The notes under the pieces were generated by a model. It worked only from the letters and a program-made list of their open reading frames with translations. It made no database searches and had not been told where the DNA came from. This document shows positions 1 through 22,590 of a DNA stretch of 22,599 nucleotides, piece by piece. The DNA lies in the IMG/VR virus record IMGVR_UViG_3300027983_000129, positions 1-22,599 of that record. The stretch is one strand, 5' to 3'. The translations under genes were made by a program, and so were the position numbers. Origin of the DNA: a virus. Positions within the stretch are counted from its first letter, which is position 1; every line of letters starts with the position of its first letter.

Positions 1-273
1 ACACCTGTGTTATTTGAACCTGTTGTGTTTGAAAGTAAAGCAGCTCTTCCAATACCTGTATTATCGTTTCCTGTTGTGTTTGATTTTAAAGAATCTTCGC
101 CAAAGGAAGTGTTATTTGAGCCTATTGTGTTTGCTTCTAAAGCACTTTGACCATTAGCTGTATTTCTACTTCCTGTTGTGTTTGAAAATAAGGCAGTTTG
201 ACCATTAGCTGTGTTACTATTTCCTGTTGTGTTTGAAAGTAAAGCAGCTTGTCCAAAAGAAGTATTTGATGAA
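1..273 (-). repeat. 51-bp in-frame tandem repeat in the tail fibre gene
   Basis: On the plus strand the word cctgttgtgtttga (cctattgtgtttgc in the third copy) starts at 19, 70, 121, 172 and 223, exactly 51 bases apart. That equals 17 codons, so copies can be gained or lost without breaking the frame. The part encoding NTTG is nearly constant; the part encoding GQxALxS varies. The array reaches the left edge, so the copy number is not known. Confidence 0.9.
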
Positions 274-977
274 ACATCGCCTTTACCGTTATTCCAAACA
301 GTCTTATCTGCATCGTTAAATTCTAAATGCGATATTAAAGGGTTTTTAGTATCAACTTGACCTTTAGTTGCTAAATGTGTACTTGCAGTTGCAGGTGAGG
401 CTATTACAGTACCCCCAACCGTAACATTAGTTCCATCCGTAGAAATAGGACTGTCTATCAACTCGTTTGCTGATTTATATGGGATATTACCAGTTGTTAT
501 TGCTGTTGGTGTTATGGTTAAAGCTTCTACGTCTGCTGATGCAGTAACTTGTCCCGTAAAACTTGGCGAATCTAAATTTGCTTTATCGTCTAAAGAAGAT
601 TGTAAGTTTAGTATGTCTGAAATTTGTGACTGAATTAAATTAACCCATTTAGTTGAGTTGTAATAAATTATTTCATCAATTCCATAGGTTAATGAGCCAT
701 TACCTAAATCTAAAGTACCCGCTACACTTACTCTATAAACACTACCAGTTAATCCTGTTCCGTTAATTAAAGTAGGAGTGTTTGTTGTTGCGTTCCAATT
801 ACCATTAAAACCCCTTAATAATGGTAATTTAATTTTTTTCGCATCACTTGTACCTGTATTTATTGCTGTAAAAAACCCATCATCAGTAAGTGTGGTTTGC
901 TCTAATAATTCACTAAATAACTTAGCGTTTGCTATTATTTCTAATAATTGTGCAAATTGACTATCTGTATATGCCAT
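1..977 (-). CDS. Tail fibre protein, 3' part cut by the window edge
   Basis: The minus-strand frame is open from an ATG at 977 to the left edge, so at least 325 residues are seen and the C-terminus is missing. Residues about 50-115 (GNWNATTNTPTLINGTGL through YNSTKWVNL) resemble a domain I know from Flavobacteria phage tail proteins. Then come two classic fibre motifs: DDKANLDSPSFTGQVTA near 130-146 and the ATKGQVD collar near residue 205. From about residue 235 the protein is built of 17-residue repeats of the type NTxxGQxALxSNTTGSN. Fibres of this type often end in a self-cleaving S74 chaperone, which would lie beyond the edge. It would sit at the tail tip and contact the host surface. It begins 1 base after the stop of the upstream 681-residue tail protein, so it is in the same operon. 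The fibre identity is well supported; the receptor cannot be deduced. Confidence 0.85.
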   Translation of the reverse strand, partial: MAYTDSQFAQLLEIIANAKLFSELLEQTTLTDDGFFTAINTGTSDAKKIKLPLLRGFNGNWNATTNTPTLINGTGLTGSVYRVSVAGTLDLGNGSLTYGIDEIIYYNSTKWVNLIQSQISDILNLQSSLDDKANLDSPSFTGQVTASADVEALTITPTAITTGNIPYKSANELIDSPISTDGTNVTVGGTVIASPATASTHLATKGQVDTKNPLISHLEFNDADKTVWNNGKGDVSSNTSFGQAALLSNTTGNSNTANGQTALFSNTTGSRNTANGQSALEANTIGSNNTSFGEDSLKSNTTGNDNTGIGRAALLSNTTGSNNTG

Positions 978-978
978 A

Positions 979-3024
979 TTAATAATTTTTAGTCCAAGCT
1001 AATATTCCTTTTCCTTTAGCAGATGCTAAAGCAATACCTATTTCTAAACTTTGAGGTGAATCTATTATAAGTTCTTGTTCTGTTGTTAAGAATTGCTCTC
1101 CACTTTGCTTCAAATTTACGACAAATTTTTTAATGTTGTAATTACCGTCCCCCGTAACTTCTGGTGGTTCAGATAACTTGTATGAAAGACCATTTATAAT
1201 AACGTATTTATGGGCAAAAACCAATCTTAACTTGTTAGCCATTTGAGTACTTAACTTCAAAAAAGTAAATCTTTGAACATCAAAAACAACATTATCAGTT
1301 ACATAATATTCTTTATCTCCATTATAGCCTTCTGTTTCTTGCTCGCCAATGTCGTCTTGATATCCAAATATTCTTAATTTATTTTTTATTCCTGTTTGAT
1401 AATTAAATTTACCTTTGTTCTCATCATCATAATAAGTAATATCAAATAAAAAGTCGCTATCACTAACTTCATTAATACATTCAGAAACGTAAGTAAAATC
1501 AATATTATCTATATCTGTCCCAGCTTCTATTAAAACGTTAAATCTTTCAGAAATAAGAGTGTTAAATTCATATATCTCATAAGGCTGTATATTGTATTTA
1601 GCGGAAATGTTTTTTGAAACAGCAGCACCTGTATAAGCAATGTTAAATTCTAAAATAAAACTATTTTTTGCGTCAGAATACCTAATACTATCAATTGGAA
1701 CTTGTCCTAAACCGTCAATAGTAACTAAATTACCTTCTGTATTTGCCCAAATAGGCAAAGACGAACCGTAATTAAGTTGTTCTATAACTGCATTAGTTAA
1801 ATAATTTAAAGAGTTTACTACTCCAAAGTAAATAGCACTTCGACCATTACCTATGTTAAAATAAGTAGAAGTAGATTTTGCTTGTAAATTTATATTTGAT
1901 GTTTTTTTAACTGCTGTTAAAGGTATTTTTACTCCTTCATTATTTAAAGAATAGCAATTTATATAATTTGCGTTTGTTTTAAATTGAGTAGTAATTACAT
2001 CATTAGCTAAATACTTTTGAGTATATCCATATTTTGTTAATCGTAATTCGTTAAAACTTAAAGTATTTTTTTGATTCTTTTTACCGCTTTCTACTTTAGC
2101 AAATCTAAAGGAATTTATTTCTGAAATATCAAAAACCGTTTCTGAAACAACTGTTACTCCATCTACAATAAAGCTTTTGCTTTTAACACAACCAAACCCA
2201 TCTTTTACATATAAAATATAATTATTTGAAGCTTGCCCAGTAAACGTACTTGACGATTGAAAAGTAACGTTATCTAAAGAATAAGTGTAAACAGATATTT
2301 CAGCAGATATAAAAGTAATAGTACTAGATACTGTTGCTCCGCTTGTGTAATTTGCAATTGTTATATTAATATCCTCCTCTATTATACTGCGAGTATTTAT
2401 AGTTTGAACAGTGCCAATTAATGAGCCTAAAGAATCCACCACTCTTAAAGCCTTTGGTATTCCCCTATCAATAATTACTGTAACTGGTGATGTTTGAGCT
2501 GAAACAGTAAGAACATCATCTACATAAACACTATAAGAGTTGTCACCCCCTTGAATTGTTAGTTCAACGTCTGTTTTATTACATTTATTAGCCGTGTTTT
2601 CAGAATAACTTGCAATAGTTACATTTTTATCTACCGCCAACGTGTCATTGGAAAATGTAGAATTAATACTACCATTAGCAATAGCTGTACCGCTTGAAGC
2701 TAAAAACAACCAAGAAGGGTTATTTAAAGTTATTGTAACTACGTTAGCTAAAGAAGTTGCAACTAAACTACCAACTTTACCTGTTCCAAAATTAACAAGA
2801 CCTGTATTAGAGTAATCTAAATTAAAAGAAGATGCATAATTTGTTGCTGTTTGATTAACGTCATAAGGATCAGTAACCGCAGATTGATAATTTCTAAACC
2901 TAGATAATTTAAAAGTTTCTAATAAAGGAAGTGTTCCGCTACCTATATTTACATTAATACTTAGTGTTTCATTTAAGGAAACCTCTGGAGAAGTATTAAA
3001 AGTTAAAGTTATTGTACTTGCCAT
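979..3024 (-). CDS. Tail tip / virion protein with SprB-like repeats
   Basis: A 681-residue protein between the probable baseplate-type protein and the tail fibre, so probably part of the tail tip. It is rich in Thr, Ser, Asn and Val, as expected of beta-sandwich modules, and has no signal peptide or membrane segment. Residues about 245-290 (YSLDNVTFQSS, then FTGQASNNYILYVKDGFGC) match the pattern of the SprB repeat of Bacteroidetes surface adhesins: YSxD, FQSS, FTG, Y-V-KD and GC in order. A weaker copy lies at about 133-213, with NKC, IQGGDNSYSVYVDD and LRVVDSLG. The C-terminal 390 residues are not recognised. The start codon overlaps the previous stop by one base (TAATG), which suggests coupled translation. 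The virion role is inferred from position; the SprB likeness is read from the sequence. Confidence 0.7.
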   Translation of the reverse strand: MASTITLTFNTSPEVSLNETLSINVNIGSGTLPLLETFKLSRFRNYQSAVTDPYDVNQTATNYASSFNLDYSNTGLVNFGTGKVGSLVATSLANVVTITLNNPSWLFLASSGTAIANGSINSTFSNDTLAVDKNVTIASYSENTANKCNKTDVELTIQGGDNSYSVYVDDVLTVSAQTSPVTVIIDRGIPKALRVVDSLGSLIGTVQTINTRSIIEEDINITIANYTSGATVSSTITFISAEISVYTYSLDNVTFQSSSTFTGQASNNYILYVKDGFGCVKSKSFIVDGVTVVSETVFDISEINSFRFAKVESGKKNQKNTLSFNELRLTKYGYTQKYLANDVITTQFKTNANYINCYSLNNEGVKIPLTAVKKTSNINLQAKSTSTYFNIGNGRSAIYFGVVNSLNYLTNAVIEQLNYGSSLPIWANTEGNLVTIDGLGQVPIDSIRYSDAKNSFILEFNIAYTGAAVSKNISAKYNIQPYEIYEFNTLISERFNVLIEAGTDIDNIDFTYVSECINEVSDSDFLFDITYYDDENKGKFNYQTGIKNKLRIFGYQDDIGEQETEGYNGDKEYYVTDNVVFDVQRFTFLKLSTQMANKLRLVFAHKYVIINGLSYKLSEPPEVTGDGNYNIKKFVVNLKQSGEQFLTTEQELIIDSPQSLEIGIALASAKGKGILAWTKNY

Positions 3025-5273
3025 TATATTCTTGCTTTAATTAATGTTATTTTAGCTTCTTCTGAACTTTCTAATTTAACCAACCTTCCGTATTTTTTTT
3101 GTCCTTTTTCAATATACTCAATTAATCCGAAATAATTGTAAACTTCTAATCCGTTTACTTTTGTTTTTTGTAAAAACTTTTTCTCTAAAATTTGATCCAT
3201 ACTAAACGTAAAGTTAATCATTGTTGCCTCAACTCTTGCGTTTGGTAAATCTTTAATTTCTACACCGCCACTTTCGCTTAAAACAAAACTATTTCTTTCT
3301 GTTATTAAATTTTGATTTGCATTACTAGAATTAAAAGTTATTCTTTTATTTGGAAAATGATACAAACCTCTTTTTAAAGAATACCCATGACCGTAATACA
3401 ACCTATTCATTGGACTAAGCCATAAATTCCAAGCACTATCTGGGTCATAAATACCAATAGGCTTTGATGTAAACCTGCCTTCATAATCCCATTTTTTATG
3501 TGTAATAAACGTGCCTGAATTATACGCATCGTGAATCCAAATATCATTATCTCTTTTACTATCTTCTTTTGGGTACAATCTAAAAGGCAATCTTCTTGTT
3601 AACTCGTAAGCAACTGCATCTGTTCTAAACTTAGATACCGCTTCGTATTTTGCATTATTTTTAGTTATAAATGTGCTAAATTCAGATTTTCCGTTAGGCT
3701 CATCTAAACCGTTTAACTCTTCATATTTTAAGCTACCTTCATGACCTAAAGTTACATTCGAGAAATAATCAATTGTTGAACTTTCGTATTCTATTTTATC
3801 AACTTCACCTAAAGAAATACCTATAAAATTTTGTTGAGTATGTGTTGCTTTTTCTATTCTAACATATTCAGTACTACCTATAACCTCTGTAAACCAACAT
3901 AAAGGCTCTAAATAATTAAAACTTTCAAAAGCATCTTTAAAAGATGTTGATAGTTGTATTTTTTGATCTTCTCCTGATGAATTTTTGTAATTATTTGGAA
4001 ATCCCCTAGCCCAAAGACCATTGTCAACTACCATAAATTCATATTCACCATTTTCTTCAAAAACACTAGATTTAACTAATCCTGTTTTACCTGTTATTTT
4101 AGCAATTAGTCTATCAAAAAAGTTAATGGGCTTAATACATTTACCTATTGTAACAAACTCGTTATAAGCAGTCAAATCTTCAATTAATAAATTACTTTTT
4201 AAAACGTTTAAATAAACGTCAATACGCCCCGTTGGCATTAAAGTACCTCCGTCAAATGATGTAAAAGCCGTAAACACAATCCCTAAACTTTCGTTTTTAT
4301 TTAAAGTTTCTTCTAAAGGTGCTGTTAAATTTTTAGTAACGTTAATGTTTCCAATAGCCGCAAACGTTTGTAAAACAGTTCTTTTTATTAATATATCGTT
4401 AGTGCCAACTAATTCTGTTTTAATTAAATCTACTGAAAAACCATTAAATTCAGAATATCTCCTAATTGTTTTTGTTATTTTATACTCTAAATCTAAATTT
4501 AATTTTAATCTTAATTCATCTTCTGCTCTAAAAAAGAATAAATCTCCAATTGGTATTTGACTACCCAAATCGTAAGTATTTGGACGACTAAATGGTAACA
4601 ACGTATCGTTTCCACTAGAGGAGTTAAACGGCAATTGAACATCTTTACCACTTGAACTGTAAATTACATCTAAAGGTATAGTTCTTGATGTTTTATCATT
4701 TTCAGAACTTATTCTTTGATATCTATAACCATTTATTCTATAATCTGTAATTTGCTTTGATTCTAATAAACTTTCTATAAATATTTTCCTACCCAATGGC
4801 TGAAAAATCTCTGTTTTTAGTTCGCCAATATTTTGTTCATCAGCAGATAAATCTGTTAATAAATCATACTCATCACTTTCTCTGTTTTTAATATCAGAAT
4901 ACAAACCACCTTCTGTAGAATTTACAGTAACACTACCTGTTCTTGATATTTCTTTAAAAGTAGCCATGTCTAATTCTTGAATGTATCTAATCTCCCACTC
5001 TTCGCTCAATGAAAATTTATTCTTTTCATATTTAGTAAGTATTACTTTTTCCTCAATACCTAATGTATAATAAATGTTTTTTAAATAATTAGAAGCATCT
5101 CCAAAAAACTCTAAATCAATATCTATTTTTGACGTAATTCCTCTACTGTCAGAATCTCTTGAATAACTTTTAACATCATTACTCCAACCCTTTGGCTCTT
5201 GTATTGGTAATTTACCAAATTTACTAGAGTAAAGTTCATATAAAACAGAATTATTCCTTTCAATGTTTTCCAT
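3024..5273 (-). CDS. Large tail protein downstream of tape measure (distal tail/tip component)
   Basis: A 749-residue protein directly after the tape measure gene. In long-tailed phages this place is taken by distal tail and tail-associated tip proteins. From residue 616 it carries a stretch (NLWLSPMNRLYYGHGYSLKR, then ITFNSSNANQNLITERN and EIKDLP) that I recall as conserved in Bacteroidetes phage tail proteins, with the pattern NLxLSPxRML, F-SSxxN-xLxT and DL. No peptidase or glycosidase motif is seen, so a cell-wall-cutting role cannot be claimed. Its start overlaps the tape measure stop by one base (TAATG) and its stop overlaps the next start in the same way, so the three tail genes are tightly coupled. 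The exact structural role is inferred. Confidence 0.7.
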   Translation of the reverse strand: MENIERNNSVLYELYSSKFGKLPIQEPKGWSNDVKSYSRDSDSRGITSKIDIDLEFFGDASNYLKNIYYTLGIEEKVILTKYEKNKFSLSEEWEIRYIQELDMATFKEISRTGSVTVNSTEGGLYSDIKNRESDEYDLLTDLSADEQNIGELKTEIFQPLGRKIFIESLLESKQITDYRINGYRYQRISSENDKTSRTIPLDVIYSSSGKDVQLPFNSSSGNDTLLPFSRPNTYDLGSQIPIGDLFFFRAEDELRLKLNLDLEYKITKTIRRYSEFNGFSVDLIKTELVGTNDILIKRTVLQTFAAIGNINVTKNLTAPLEETLNKNESLGIVFTAFTSFDGGTLMPTGRIDVYLNVLKSNLLIEDLTAYNEFVTIGKCIKPINFFDRLIAKITGKTGLVKSSVFEENGEYEFMVVDNGLWARGFPNNYKNSSGEDQKIQLSTSFKDAFESFNYLEPLCWFTEVIGSTEYVRIEKATHTQQNFIGISLGEVDKIEYESSTIDYFSNVTLGHEGSLKYEELNGLDEPNGKSEFSTFITKNNAKYEAVSKFRTDAVAYELTRRLPFRLYPKEDSKRDNDIWIHDAYNSGTFITHKKWDYEGRFTSKPIGIYDPDSAWNLWLSPMNRLYYGHGYSLKRGLYHFPNKRITFNSSNANQNLITERNSFVLSESGGVEIKDLPNARVEATMINFTFSMDQILEKKFLQKTKVNGLEVYNYFGLIEYIEKGQKKYGRLVKLESSEEAKITLIKARI

Positions 5274-8269
5274 TAATAAGCTTTGTTAGTTTTTATTTCT
5301 ACTTTGTTGTTTACATTTATTGGTCTTGAAGCTAATTTCTTTACCTCTCTCCAAACCATTTCGTTACTTGATGCTAACATATCTATTTTATTTAATAAAG
5401 CCTTATCTGTAACGTTTTCACTTAAAGAACGACCATTACTAGACATATTCATTTCAAAAACAACTCTTTGTAAGTCGTCATTAGCTAAAGAATTAAAATA
5501 ATCTTCTTGATTTTTAAATACCTTATCCCCTTTTTCTAAATAAGTTAAAGAATTTCCACCCTTAGTACCCATTGTTTTAAGGTTTCCAAATTTATCTGTA
5601 ATGGGTTCGGGTCTTTTCTCTTGTGTTATAGCCCATCCTTTAGGTGCGTTTTCTGTACCTTGTTTAAATTGAGGTAAAGGCTGTGATACTACGAGTGCCG
5701 CTTGTGCTAAACCCAATCCAACTATTAAAGGTATTGCAAAAGGAGATAAAACCCCTGTTTGCGCAATTACTTTAGCTACACCAACCGCTGTGTCAATAGC
5801 TATTTTAATTAAAGCATTTTTACGTTCTTGTTTTGCCTTTCTGTTATTAATATCCCTTTCTCTTTCATCAAATTGTTTTCTTGCAGCTTCTTTAGCCTCT
5901 GATGACGCTAGGTCATTGTTTAAAATTAAATCCCTTGTTCTTTGAGCTGCTTGTAATTCAATATCATAGCTCTGTAAACTAGCATCTAAAACACTGCCTA
6001 TTAATTCTTTTGATAAATCAGCCCAAGCACCAATTTTATCAGCACTAAATAATTCATCTGTTTTATCTCCTAAACTGTCAAATATAAAGTCAAATTTAGA
6101 AAAATCAACGTCAAATATATCCCCAAAAGTATCTGTTACTCCTTTAAATAATTCTTTATATTCTTTAAAATCATTTTTTCTATTTTTTATTTCTCTTAAC
6201 AATTTATTTGCCGCCGCATACATTTCTAAAGTTTCCTTACTGGCCGGTTGTAGCTTGGGTGCATCTGCTAGTCCATTTTGTACATCTTCAAAAGGTTTTT
6301 TTAAGTTTTCAAAAAATTTAGTATCAAATCCAACAGGTTTTAAAACATTAAATTTAACTTCTAAATCGGCTAAAGCGTCTTTTGCGTTTTCAATTTGTTT
6401 TGTAAACTTAAAAAATTCCCGTCTACTTAATGCTGTTTTATTTATAGACTCTTCCGCTAATGATATTTGTTTTTTATAAAATTCTATTGTTCCTTTTAAA
6501 AAATCAATATTCTCCAAAGCTTTTAATTTCTCCCAAGCTTTTAATTCTAAATCTAAAACAGCTATCTTACTTCGTATAGCCCTAGCCTGTTCTTTTGTAG
6601 AGCCAAGTAATTCGTCTTCTAATTTCTTTTTTTCTTCTAAAACAACAGCCATTGTTCTTTCTTTATTTATCGCATCATCTTTATTTTCATTATACTTTGA
6701 CGAATAAATATTAGCGGCTTTTAGTATTCCGTTTTGTGTAGATAAACTGTTGTTTAATTTTTTATTTTCTTGATTAGCCTGTGTTGTTGATTTATTATGC
6801 TCTCTACTTAATTTATAATAAGCAGGGTAATCTGTTTTAAATAATTTTAGTAAATTATTATTAAACTCTATTTCTTTTGTGATTTCTTTTATTCTTTTTT
6901 CTGCATTTTTTTTTGTAATCTTAGCGTAATTAGAGGCTTCTTTACCTAAACCATCAAAATATTTAGCTTGATTAACAAAAGCTTTATTCTCTAATAATGA
7001 ATTAAAGTCTTCTTGTGTTTCATTTAACAAGTTTAAACCATTAACTAATCCACCAACTAGTCCTATTGTAAACATTAAAGTTTTACTTATAGCACCTTCA
7101 CTATTTGTTAAATTACCAATAAACTTAACCCAAGAATTAGACATTCTTTCAATAGATGCATTTAAAGTTTCAACACTATCTTTTTGATCAATACCAATAG
7201 ATTTTTCATATTGTTTTGAAAATTCAGGTAAAACCTCTGCTGATAATATTGTTCCTGCTCTAAGCATTTTATCTAAAGTAGAAACAGTAACTTCAATATC
7301 TGGATTTAACTTCTGAACAGTTTGAGCCATTACGCCAAATGCTCCTGGCAATCTTTCCGCTAGCTGTCTACGTAATTCTTCTGTTGTTACCTTACCTTTA
7401 GAAAGCATTTGTTCTAATGCTAAAAACACTCCTTCCAATTCATGAGAACTTAAACCTAAGAAACCTGCTGATTTTGTAAATGACTTAAAAATAGCTTCTG
7501 TATCTTTTAATGTAACACCACTTTGCCGTGCAGCAGTATAGAATTTATTATATCTATCAGTTAATGTTAATATAGATGCTCCATACTTTTCTGCGGTTTC
7601 TGCTAAAAATAATTGCGTTCTTTGTAATATTTCAGCGTTACCAATAACCGCTTTCATTGTAAAATTAAGACTATCTAACTTACGTGCTAAATCAAAACCT
7701 TGTTTTGCAAATTGTGCAAATAATTGAATACCACCAATAAGACCAAAAGCACTTAAAAGGTTTTTAAAGCCACGAGCCATTCCTCCTAAACCTGTATTAG
7801 CAAAATTAGATGTAGCTTTGTTAGCTTGGTTTACTCTTGCTGTAAGTCTGTTGTATTCTTGTTGTGCTTTTTTAGTTTCAGCATTATTTTTACCTTGACT
7901 TACTATTAAATCTTGTAAAGCTTTTTTAGCTAATTTTTGTTTAGCAACTAAATTAGCGTATGCACCTACTAATTTATTTGTAGAATTTTCTTCTAATTTT
8001 GTTTGTTGATTTAATGCTTGTTTTTCTATTTTTAATTTAGCTTCTTCTTGTGATAATTCTTTAGTTGTCTGTTTAAGTCTTCCCAATGATACATTTACTT
8101 CCTCTGTGGTTTTTCCTAATTCTTTAAAAGAATCAACATCTTTAGAAAGCATTTTATGCAATTCCCCAGCACTACTTAATAATGTATTATGTAATTTTTC
8201 TGCTTTTACTTGAATCTCATCAATCGCTCTTTTAGCTAAGTCTAATGCTTCTTGTGTACTATTTGCCAT
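5273..8269 (-). CDS. Tail tape measure protein
   Basis: A 998-residue protein that sets tail length and fills the tail tube. Residues 1-160 are charged and heptad-rich (coiled coil). Residues about 191-380 match the phage tape measure N-terminal domain: KYGASILTLTDRYNKFYTAA, then LGLSSHELEGVFLALEQMLS and the hallmark KGKVTTEELRRQLAERLPGA at 291-310. More coiled coil follows at about 460-700. Near the C-terminus there is a hydrophobic stretch (IAIDTAVGVAKVIAQ then FAIPLIVGLGLAQAALV), as usual for the part inserted into the host membrane. The gene overlaps the upstream chaperone-like gene by 11 bases and the downstream tail gene by 1. At roughly 0.15 nm per residue the tail would be about 150 nm long. 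Confidence 0.95.
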   Translation of the reverse strand: MANSTQEALDLAKRAIDEIQVKAEKLHNTLLSSAGELHKMLSKDVDSFKELGKTTEEVNVSLGRLKQTTKELSQEEAKLKIEKQALNQQTKLEENSTNKLVGAYANLVAKQKLAKKALQDLIVSQGKNNAETKKAQQEYNRLTARVNQANKATSNFANTGLGGMARGFKNLLSAFGLIGGIQLFAQFAKQGFDLARKLDSLNFTMKAVIGNAEILQRTQLFLAETAEKYGASILTLTDRYNKFYTAARQSGVTLKDTEAIFKSFTKSAGFLGLSSHELEGVFLALEQMLSKGKVTTEELRRQLAERLPGAFGVMAQTVQKLNPDIEVTVSTLDKMLRAGTILSAEVLPEFSKQYEKSIGIDQKDSVETLNASIERMSNSWVKFIGNLTNSEGAISKTLMFTIGLVGGLVNGLNLLNETQEDFNSLLENKAFVNQAKYFDGLGKEASNYAKITKKNAEKRIKEITKEIEFNNNLLKLFKTDYPAYYKLSREHNKSTTQANQENKKLNNSLSTQNGILKAANIYSSKYNENKDDAINKERTMAVVLEEKKKLEDELLGSTKEQARAIRSKIAVLDLELKAWEKLKALENIDFLKGTIEFYKKQISLAEESINKTALSRREFFKFTKQIENAKDALADLEVKFNVLKPVGFDTKFFENLKKPFEDVQNGLADAPKLQPASKETLEMYAAANKLLREIKNRKNDFKEYKELFKGVTDTFGDIFDVDFSKFDFIFDSLGDKTDELFSADKIGAWADLSKELIGSVLDASLQSYDIELQAAQRTRDLILNNDLASSEAKEAARKQFDERERDINNRKAKQERKNALIKIAIDTAVGVAKVIAQTGVLSPFAIPLIVGLGLAQAALVVSQPLPQFKQGTENAPKGWAITQEKRPEPITDKFGNLKTMGTKGGNSLTYLEKGDKVFKNQEDYFNSLANDDLQRVVFEMNMSSNGRSLSENVTDKALLNKIDMLASSNEMVWREVKKLASRPINVNNKVEIKTNKAY

Positions 8270-22385: not shown

Positions 22386-22590
22386 ATTGCATTATATCTA
22401 TCGATACAGTACTTTTCATTGCATTATTCGCAATCTTTTTTGTCTCCAGTCGGTGCCTTATTGCATTATTCGCAATCTATTATGCCTCTATTATGTTCTG
22501 GCCCTTGTTCTGGCCCTTGTTCTGGCCCTTGTTCTGGCCCTTGTTCTGGCCCTTGTTCTGGCCCTTGTTCTCCATTGCATTATTCGTAAT
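22386..22590. repeat. Dispersed short repeat with dyad symmetry (ATTGCATTATTCGCAAT)
   Basis: Full copies lie at 22418-22434 and 22460-22476, a copy with one change (GTAAT for GCAAT) at 22574-22590, and a partial copy (ATTGCATTA) at 22386-22394. The unit has TTGC and GCAA half-sites seven bases apart, like a binding site for a dimeric protein. The last copies flank the 12-bp tandem array. Confidence 0.7.
22496..22567. repeat. Six perfect tandem copies of a 12-bp unit
   Basis: TTCTGGCCCTTG repeats six times without a change, with four more matching bases after it. The unit is GC-rich in an AT-rich genome and contains GGCC. Its length is a multiple of three, so all three frames stay open on each strand, but no plausible protein contains it. 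Confidence 0.95.

Follow-up and report, generated by a model that had tools for sequence, protein, structure and literature searches.

Ig-like domains are well known in phages, and some tail-tip proteins carry them in series: the Ig/FN3-like domains of the T5 straight fibre and lambda gpJ are also tandem beta-sandwiches, with no detectable sequence kinship to the modules described here. The SprB repeat (PF13573) belongs to T9SS adhesins of Bacteroidota, SprB among them, where modules of about 80 residues stand in tandem. Phage proteins have already been given the label 'SprB repeat', but these proteins, from uncultured Caudovirales phages (e.g. A0A6J5LDA4, in BFVD), are different ones: for the most part they are long arrays of large phages, and they lie outside the tail-protein family that concerns us here. 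We observed arrays of this kind in IMG/VR contigs L099-L144 (12-270 kb), where proteins have up to 16 SprB-type modules, several over the Pfam cut-off (for example L108 4375-9642, L122 3138-5279 and L127 4696-7983); some proteins of 700 residues in these contigs consist of seven SprB-type modules and little else. The nearest precedent is the BACON array of crAss-like phage tails, likewise an Ig-like domain common to Bacteroidota surface proteins and tail proteins; it differs from the pair described below in belonging to another domain family and in being expanded in tandem, with transfers and duplications documented (PMC6949934).

The window, by which we mean the whole stretch of DNA analysed, is a 22.6-kb virus record from IMG/VR. 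Its minus strand carries a siphovirus-type gene block that runs from terminase, portal and head proteins through the tape measure and a 749-residue structural protein to a 681-residue tail protein and a truncated fibre protein. The source is a phage of marine flavobacteria. The features that bear on the tail protein are as follows.

5273..8269, minus strand: tape measure protein (PF20155, E 1.3e-27; also PHROGs)
3024..5273, minus strand: 749-residue virion structural protein (phrog_15220), between tape measure and tail protein
979..3024, minus strand: 681-residue tail protein (phrog_26672), third in the tail-tip block (tape measure, 749-residue protein, tail protein, fibre)
2632..3024, minus strand: N-terminal domain, residues 1-131, predicted to resemble the T7 nozzle protein gp12 (residues ~148-248) in fold
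2389..2631, minus strand: module 1, residues 132-212, a weak SprB-type Ig-like module with cysteine C1 only
2581..2583, minus strand: codon of C148 (C1, in the A-B loop of module 1), kept by 12 of 13 relatives
2149..2388, minus strand: module 2, residues 213-292, a clear SprB-type Ig-like module with cysteine C2 only
2188..2190, minus strand: codon of C279 (C2, in the F-G turn of module 2), kept by the 12 of 13 relatives that also have C148
982..2148, minus strand: C-terminal part, residues 293-681, beta-rich and without a known relative by sequence
3..977, minus strand: fibre/tail protein downstream, truncated where the contig ends, with matches to tail spike and minor tail entries of PHROG

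Residues 3-680 of the tail protein match phrog_26672 over its full length (E 4.6e-173 in a PHROG profile search). That family is listed under head and packaging, whereas the gene order points to the tail tip, and its SprB-type part is unmentioned there. The relative in Cellulophaga phage phi19:1, gp98, is annotated as a virion protein from MS/MS. A profile of the 749-residue neighbour found no relative among solved structures. The fibre protein has degenerate 51-base (17-residue) repeats at window positions 19-256, with NTTGSxNTAxG motifs that resemble trimeric-adhesin head repeats. At the other end of the window, positions 22494-22571 hold 6.5 copies of a perfect 12-base repeat, TGTTCTGGCCCT, with a GC content above that of its surroundings, adjoining repeated 'ATTGCATTATTCGCAATC' stretches at the contig end.

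The initial annotation had taken the motif YTYSLDNVTFQSSSTFTG...YILYVKDGFGC, at residues 247-279, for part of a SprB-like repeat, with a weaker copy before it. The Pfam model gave this reading no help: PF13573 has 37 positions and covers the first half of a module only, it had no match to the window protein (curated cut-off, 28 bits), and among the relatives it reached E 0.015 in one, below the cut-off. A profile of the whole module was, however, clearly significant. The 67 bacterial modules in it had been picked out by PF13573 from five genomes of flavobacteria, independent of the phage motif, and the profile matched the window protein at 30.4 bits (E 1.8e-7 for 10,000 sequences), as against 11.6 bits for the best of 4,411 shuffled or reversed decoys. 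It scored at least 25 bits in 12 of the 13 family members and just 12 in the thirteenth, L145. A second profile, of 232 modules, gave E 2.5e-12 for 1,000 sequences; its modules had been found by a consensus written with the phage motif in view, and it is hence biased.

Profile-profile comparison placed both modules, with P 1.3e-15 for module 2 and P 1.1e-4, in the correct register, for module 1. Searched alone, module 1 reached E 0.03 in the window protein and E 1.3e-4 and about 2e-6 (two profiles) in phi19:1, so that the weaker copy was also confirmed and is clearer in the Cellulophaga phages. The N-terminal and C-terminal remainder of the tail protein had no match in the profile-profile comparison. 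In the reverse direction, long SprB-type array proteins from other phage contigs matched phrog_26672 solely at positions 186-301 (best E 1e-30). The two modules, of about 80 residues in tandem, resemble the bacterial period of 72-87 residues, occupy the same C1/C2 scheme and share the motif YSLDxVxYQxSxxFTGLxxGxYTxYVKDxxGC. They differ from the SprB repeat in lying below Pfam detection, in numbering two rather than many, in being located in a virion protein, and in that module 2 is without the first cysteine and module 1 without the second. Compared with a SprB gliding adhesin, the protein is short and two-moduled, and no T9SS sorting domain was matched anywhere in its 681 residues. The BACON model (PF13004) had no match in the window protein either. 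Pfam and NCBIfam scans of all family members returned nothing useful; a match to FlgD_ig in one member (E 0.0005) is to a different Ig-like model. Profiles of the whole tail protein or of the pair found nothing among solved structures, or intimin at E 0.064. On these profile scores, the window module is best described as a diverged relative of the SprB repeat and not as a curated Pfam member.

Structure prediction, the other check proposed for the initial annotation, was consistent with this description. The pair modelled alone (pLDDT 92.8, pTM 0.81) was predicted to form two Ig-like beta-sandwiches of six to seven strands per module; the full-length model, from eight sequences, had a mean pLDDT of 74.5, with residues 130-290 at about 78-91. 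In the module part, the best matches of the full model were tandem fibronectin III domains, GhpA and the T5 straight fibre, all with middling Z of about 8. GhpA, which Aureispira (Bacteroidota) carries on its surface, aligned over 9flw 3913-4078 with Z 8.3 and an rmsd of 5.7 over 145; the SprB consensus also matches it by sequence at 3964-4033, within the structurally matched stretch. The SprB profile also matched RemZ, a gliding-related protein of solved structure, at E 0.009. The predicted N-terminal domain (residues 1-125) aligned with T7 gp12 at Z 7.9 and rmsd 3.0 over 92 residues; with Z below 8, we treat this as a hint only. A likeness to a podovirus was unexpected.

The tail-protein family includes proteins of Polaribacter phages P12002S/L (47%), Cellulophaga phages Nekkels_1/2 and phi19:1, Tenacibaculum phage JQ and Leeuwenhoekiella phage Arctus_1, and further members in several IMG/VR contigs. 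In the records examined, the gene order of tape measure, a protein of about 740 residues and tail protein recurs, and in most cases a fibre gene or another structural gene follows. All 13 tail proteins, down to 22% overall identity, have the module pair at the same place, and these comparisons indicate that the pair was already present in the common ancestor of the family. When 100 modules were placed in a tree, all 13 module 2 copies fell on one side of a branch, requiring one change versus 12 expected from shuffled labels; the branch that separates them from the other 87 modules has a support of 76, which is not significant, and the tree, with 80 columns and few supported branches, holds too little to give the direction of transfer. 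The GC content of the module (29.6%) equals that of the window (29.8%). Since the pair is at the same place in every member, the module 2 copies group together and the GC content is that of the surroundings, the earlier suggestion that the modules were picked up from the host is unsupported as a recent event. The pair looks like an old inheritance and not a recent theft.

Several further differences within the family were observed. Between P12002S and P12002L (L004 5983-8019 versus L009 4983-7019; codons 136-206), 14 of the 15 changed codons lie in module 1, and nine of these 14 changes are synonymous; we considered and rejected positive selection in module 1 for this pair of phages, as the synonymous-rich patch looks recombined and coincides with the module. 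One IMG/VR contig has two adjacent paralogous copies of the tail protein (L107 3296-5320 and 5338-7362), the first with a different N-terminal domain that weakly matches BACON (E 0.035, below the cut-off). Another relative (L002 about 6060-6660; likewise L001) has an insertion of 183 residues after residue ~362, with a weak match to DUF4627 (E 0.005), which may be an extra, possibly sugar-binding domain.

SprB-type modules have two cysteine sites: C1 ('tCnG') sits in the loop that leads into the second strand, and C2 ('DanGC') in the final hairpin. We scored 1,485 modules from dereplicated bacterial and viral arrays as having both (D), C1 only (1) or C2 only (2). Loss of C1 and C2 within the same module was uncorrelated (phi -0.01), whereas C1 of one module and C2 of the next, C1(n) and C2(n+1), were lost together (phi 0.50). 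The correlation between C2(n) and C1(n+1) was 0.25 (phi), and arises because alternating arrays yield both. Many arrays read 1DDD...D2 or 1212.... The cysteine missing from incomplete first modules was C2 in all 26 cases (17:0 after dereplication, P 1.5e-5), and that missing from incomplete last modules was C1 in 36 cases and C2 in eight (21:4, P 9e-4). With the unbiased profile the counts were 24:0 for first and 5:1 for last modules, and viral contigs alone, several of which are near relatives, gave 12:0 for first modules. The viral contigs lay outside the set in which the rule was first seen; overall, the data in which we found the rule overlap with most of those used to test it.

The simplest reading is that this cysteine rule implies head-to-tail disulfides, C1(n)-C2(n+1), along the array. 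A disulfide between C1 and C2 of the same module was rejected, given the lack of correlation and the existence of alternating 1212 arrays, and pairing of C2(n) with C1(n+1) as a general rule was rejected by the array ends. The putative head-to-tail disulfide also fits the Ig topology, in which the A-B loop occupies the pole next to the following domain and the F-G loop that next to the preceding one. The phage pair follows the same scheme: module 1 has C148 as C1 and no C2, and module 2 has C279 as C2 and no C1, an arrangement also seen where bacterial and viral arrays begin and end. In the model, C148 falls between strands 134-142 and 150-158, and C279 at the turn between strands 267-274 and 280-287. 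No other cysteines are conserved in 12 of the 13 tail proteins; the thirteenth, L145, has neither C148 nor C279 and retains the module pair. Judged by its cysteines, the phage pair would thus be the minimal case of a stapled array. With sequence profiles, fold class and cysteine rule in agreement, the kinship with SprB-type modules of Bacteroidota put forward in the initial annotation is supported.

Building on the homology, tandem arrangement, position and conservation of the pair, we infer that this ancestral SprB-type pair probably serves the flavobacterial siphophage tail tip as a stiff, disulfide-stapled spacer, a joint reading that we favour without regarding it as secure. The N-terminal domain would probably dock to the tail, the beta-rich C-terminal part would present the tip, and the two modules would hold them apart as a stiff spacer. 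Stiffness would come from a C148-C279 disulfide joining the lower pole of module 1 to the upper pole of module 2. This would be the head-to-tail link, C1(n) to C2(n+1), that the cysteine pattern suggests for bacterial SprB-type arrays, and the pair would be the shortest stapled array possible. The spacer role, most likely in our view, is argued from position and analogy: the N-terminal domain resembles T7 gp12, the C-terminal part is the best conserved among close relatives, there are only two modules, they are constantly present, and a separate fibre is encoded downstream. Several points count against the staple: phage tails are assembled in the reducing cytoplasm, L145 keeps the pair without either cysteine, C2(n) and C1(n+1) correlate as well, and the data behind the rule and its test overlap.

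A different reading, which we consider unlikely, is that the tail protein contains a generic phage-resident Ig-like pair, whose likeness to SprB goes back to common descent within a broad pool of Ig domains; the transfer may then have run from phage to bacterium. Matches of the SprB profile to a solved phage decoration protein (5lxk, E 8.3e-8) and to a neck whisker protein (9occ, E 4.5e-7) would agree with such a pool, as would the long SprB-type arrays in large IMG/VR phages. However, a bacterial-type SprB consensus searched against 50,697 phage records matched the tail family, one huge phage and no others, and the two-cysteine pattern of the pair is that of SprB-type arrays.

We also considered receptor mimicry, in which the modules would attach to glycans on the host surface or to SprB-type adhesins of the host itself; this putative role seems to us rather improbable. 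Targets would be at hand, with SprB repeats in 55 of 60 Flavobacteriaceae genomes tested, and one paper names gliding adhesins among the possible receptors for phages (PMC13288928). Tail-associated BACON domains have been read in the same way in crAss-like phages (PMC6949934). Moreover, among close relatives the N-terminal half, which bears the modules, shows 47-55% identity against 65-73% for the C-terminal half and has hence diverged faster. However, there are two modules only, without expansion in the family, we saw no hypervariable loops in them, and a separate fibre protein lies downstream; the synonymous-rich changes in module 1 of P12002L and P12002S point to recombination and not to selection. 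In a more far-reaching reading, the tail tip might use a stapled minimal SprB array to dock onto, or slot into, host SprB-type adhesin filaments through module-module contacts, with gliding fibres as receptor or track, which we think very improbable. Chance or low-complexity likeness, for which the failure of PF13573 to detect the window protein might speak, can be dismissed, as it is refuted by the decoy test and by similar scores in 12 of the 13 family members.

Neither the SprB-type modules of the tail family nor the cysteine rule was found described in the literature searched, which included few subscription papers. SprB labels on proteins of uncultured phages were already known; the new elements are a diverged pair of SprB type in these tail proteins, and the cysteine rule. 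The pair links a widespread and structurally little described adhesin module of Bacteroidota with the tail tips of their phages, and its two-module version leads to a simple rule by which long adhesin arrays may be stiffened, namely disulfides between neighbours. If this is true, the phage pair would be a small, tractable protein for solving the inter-module joint of gliding adhesins.
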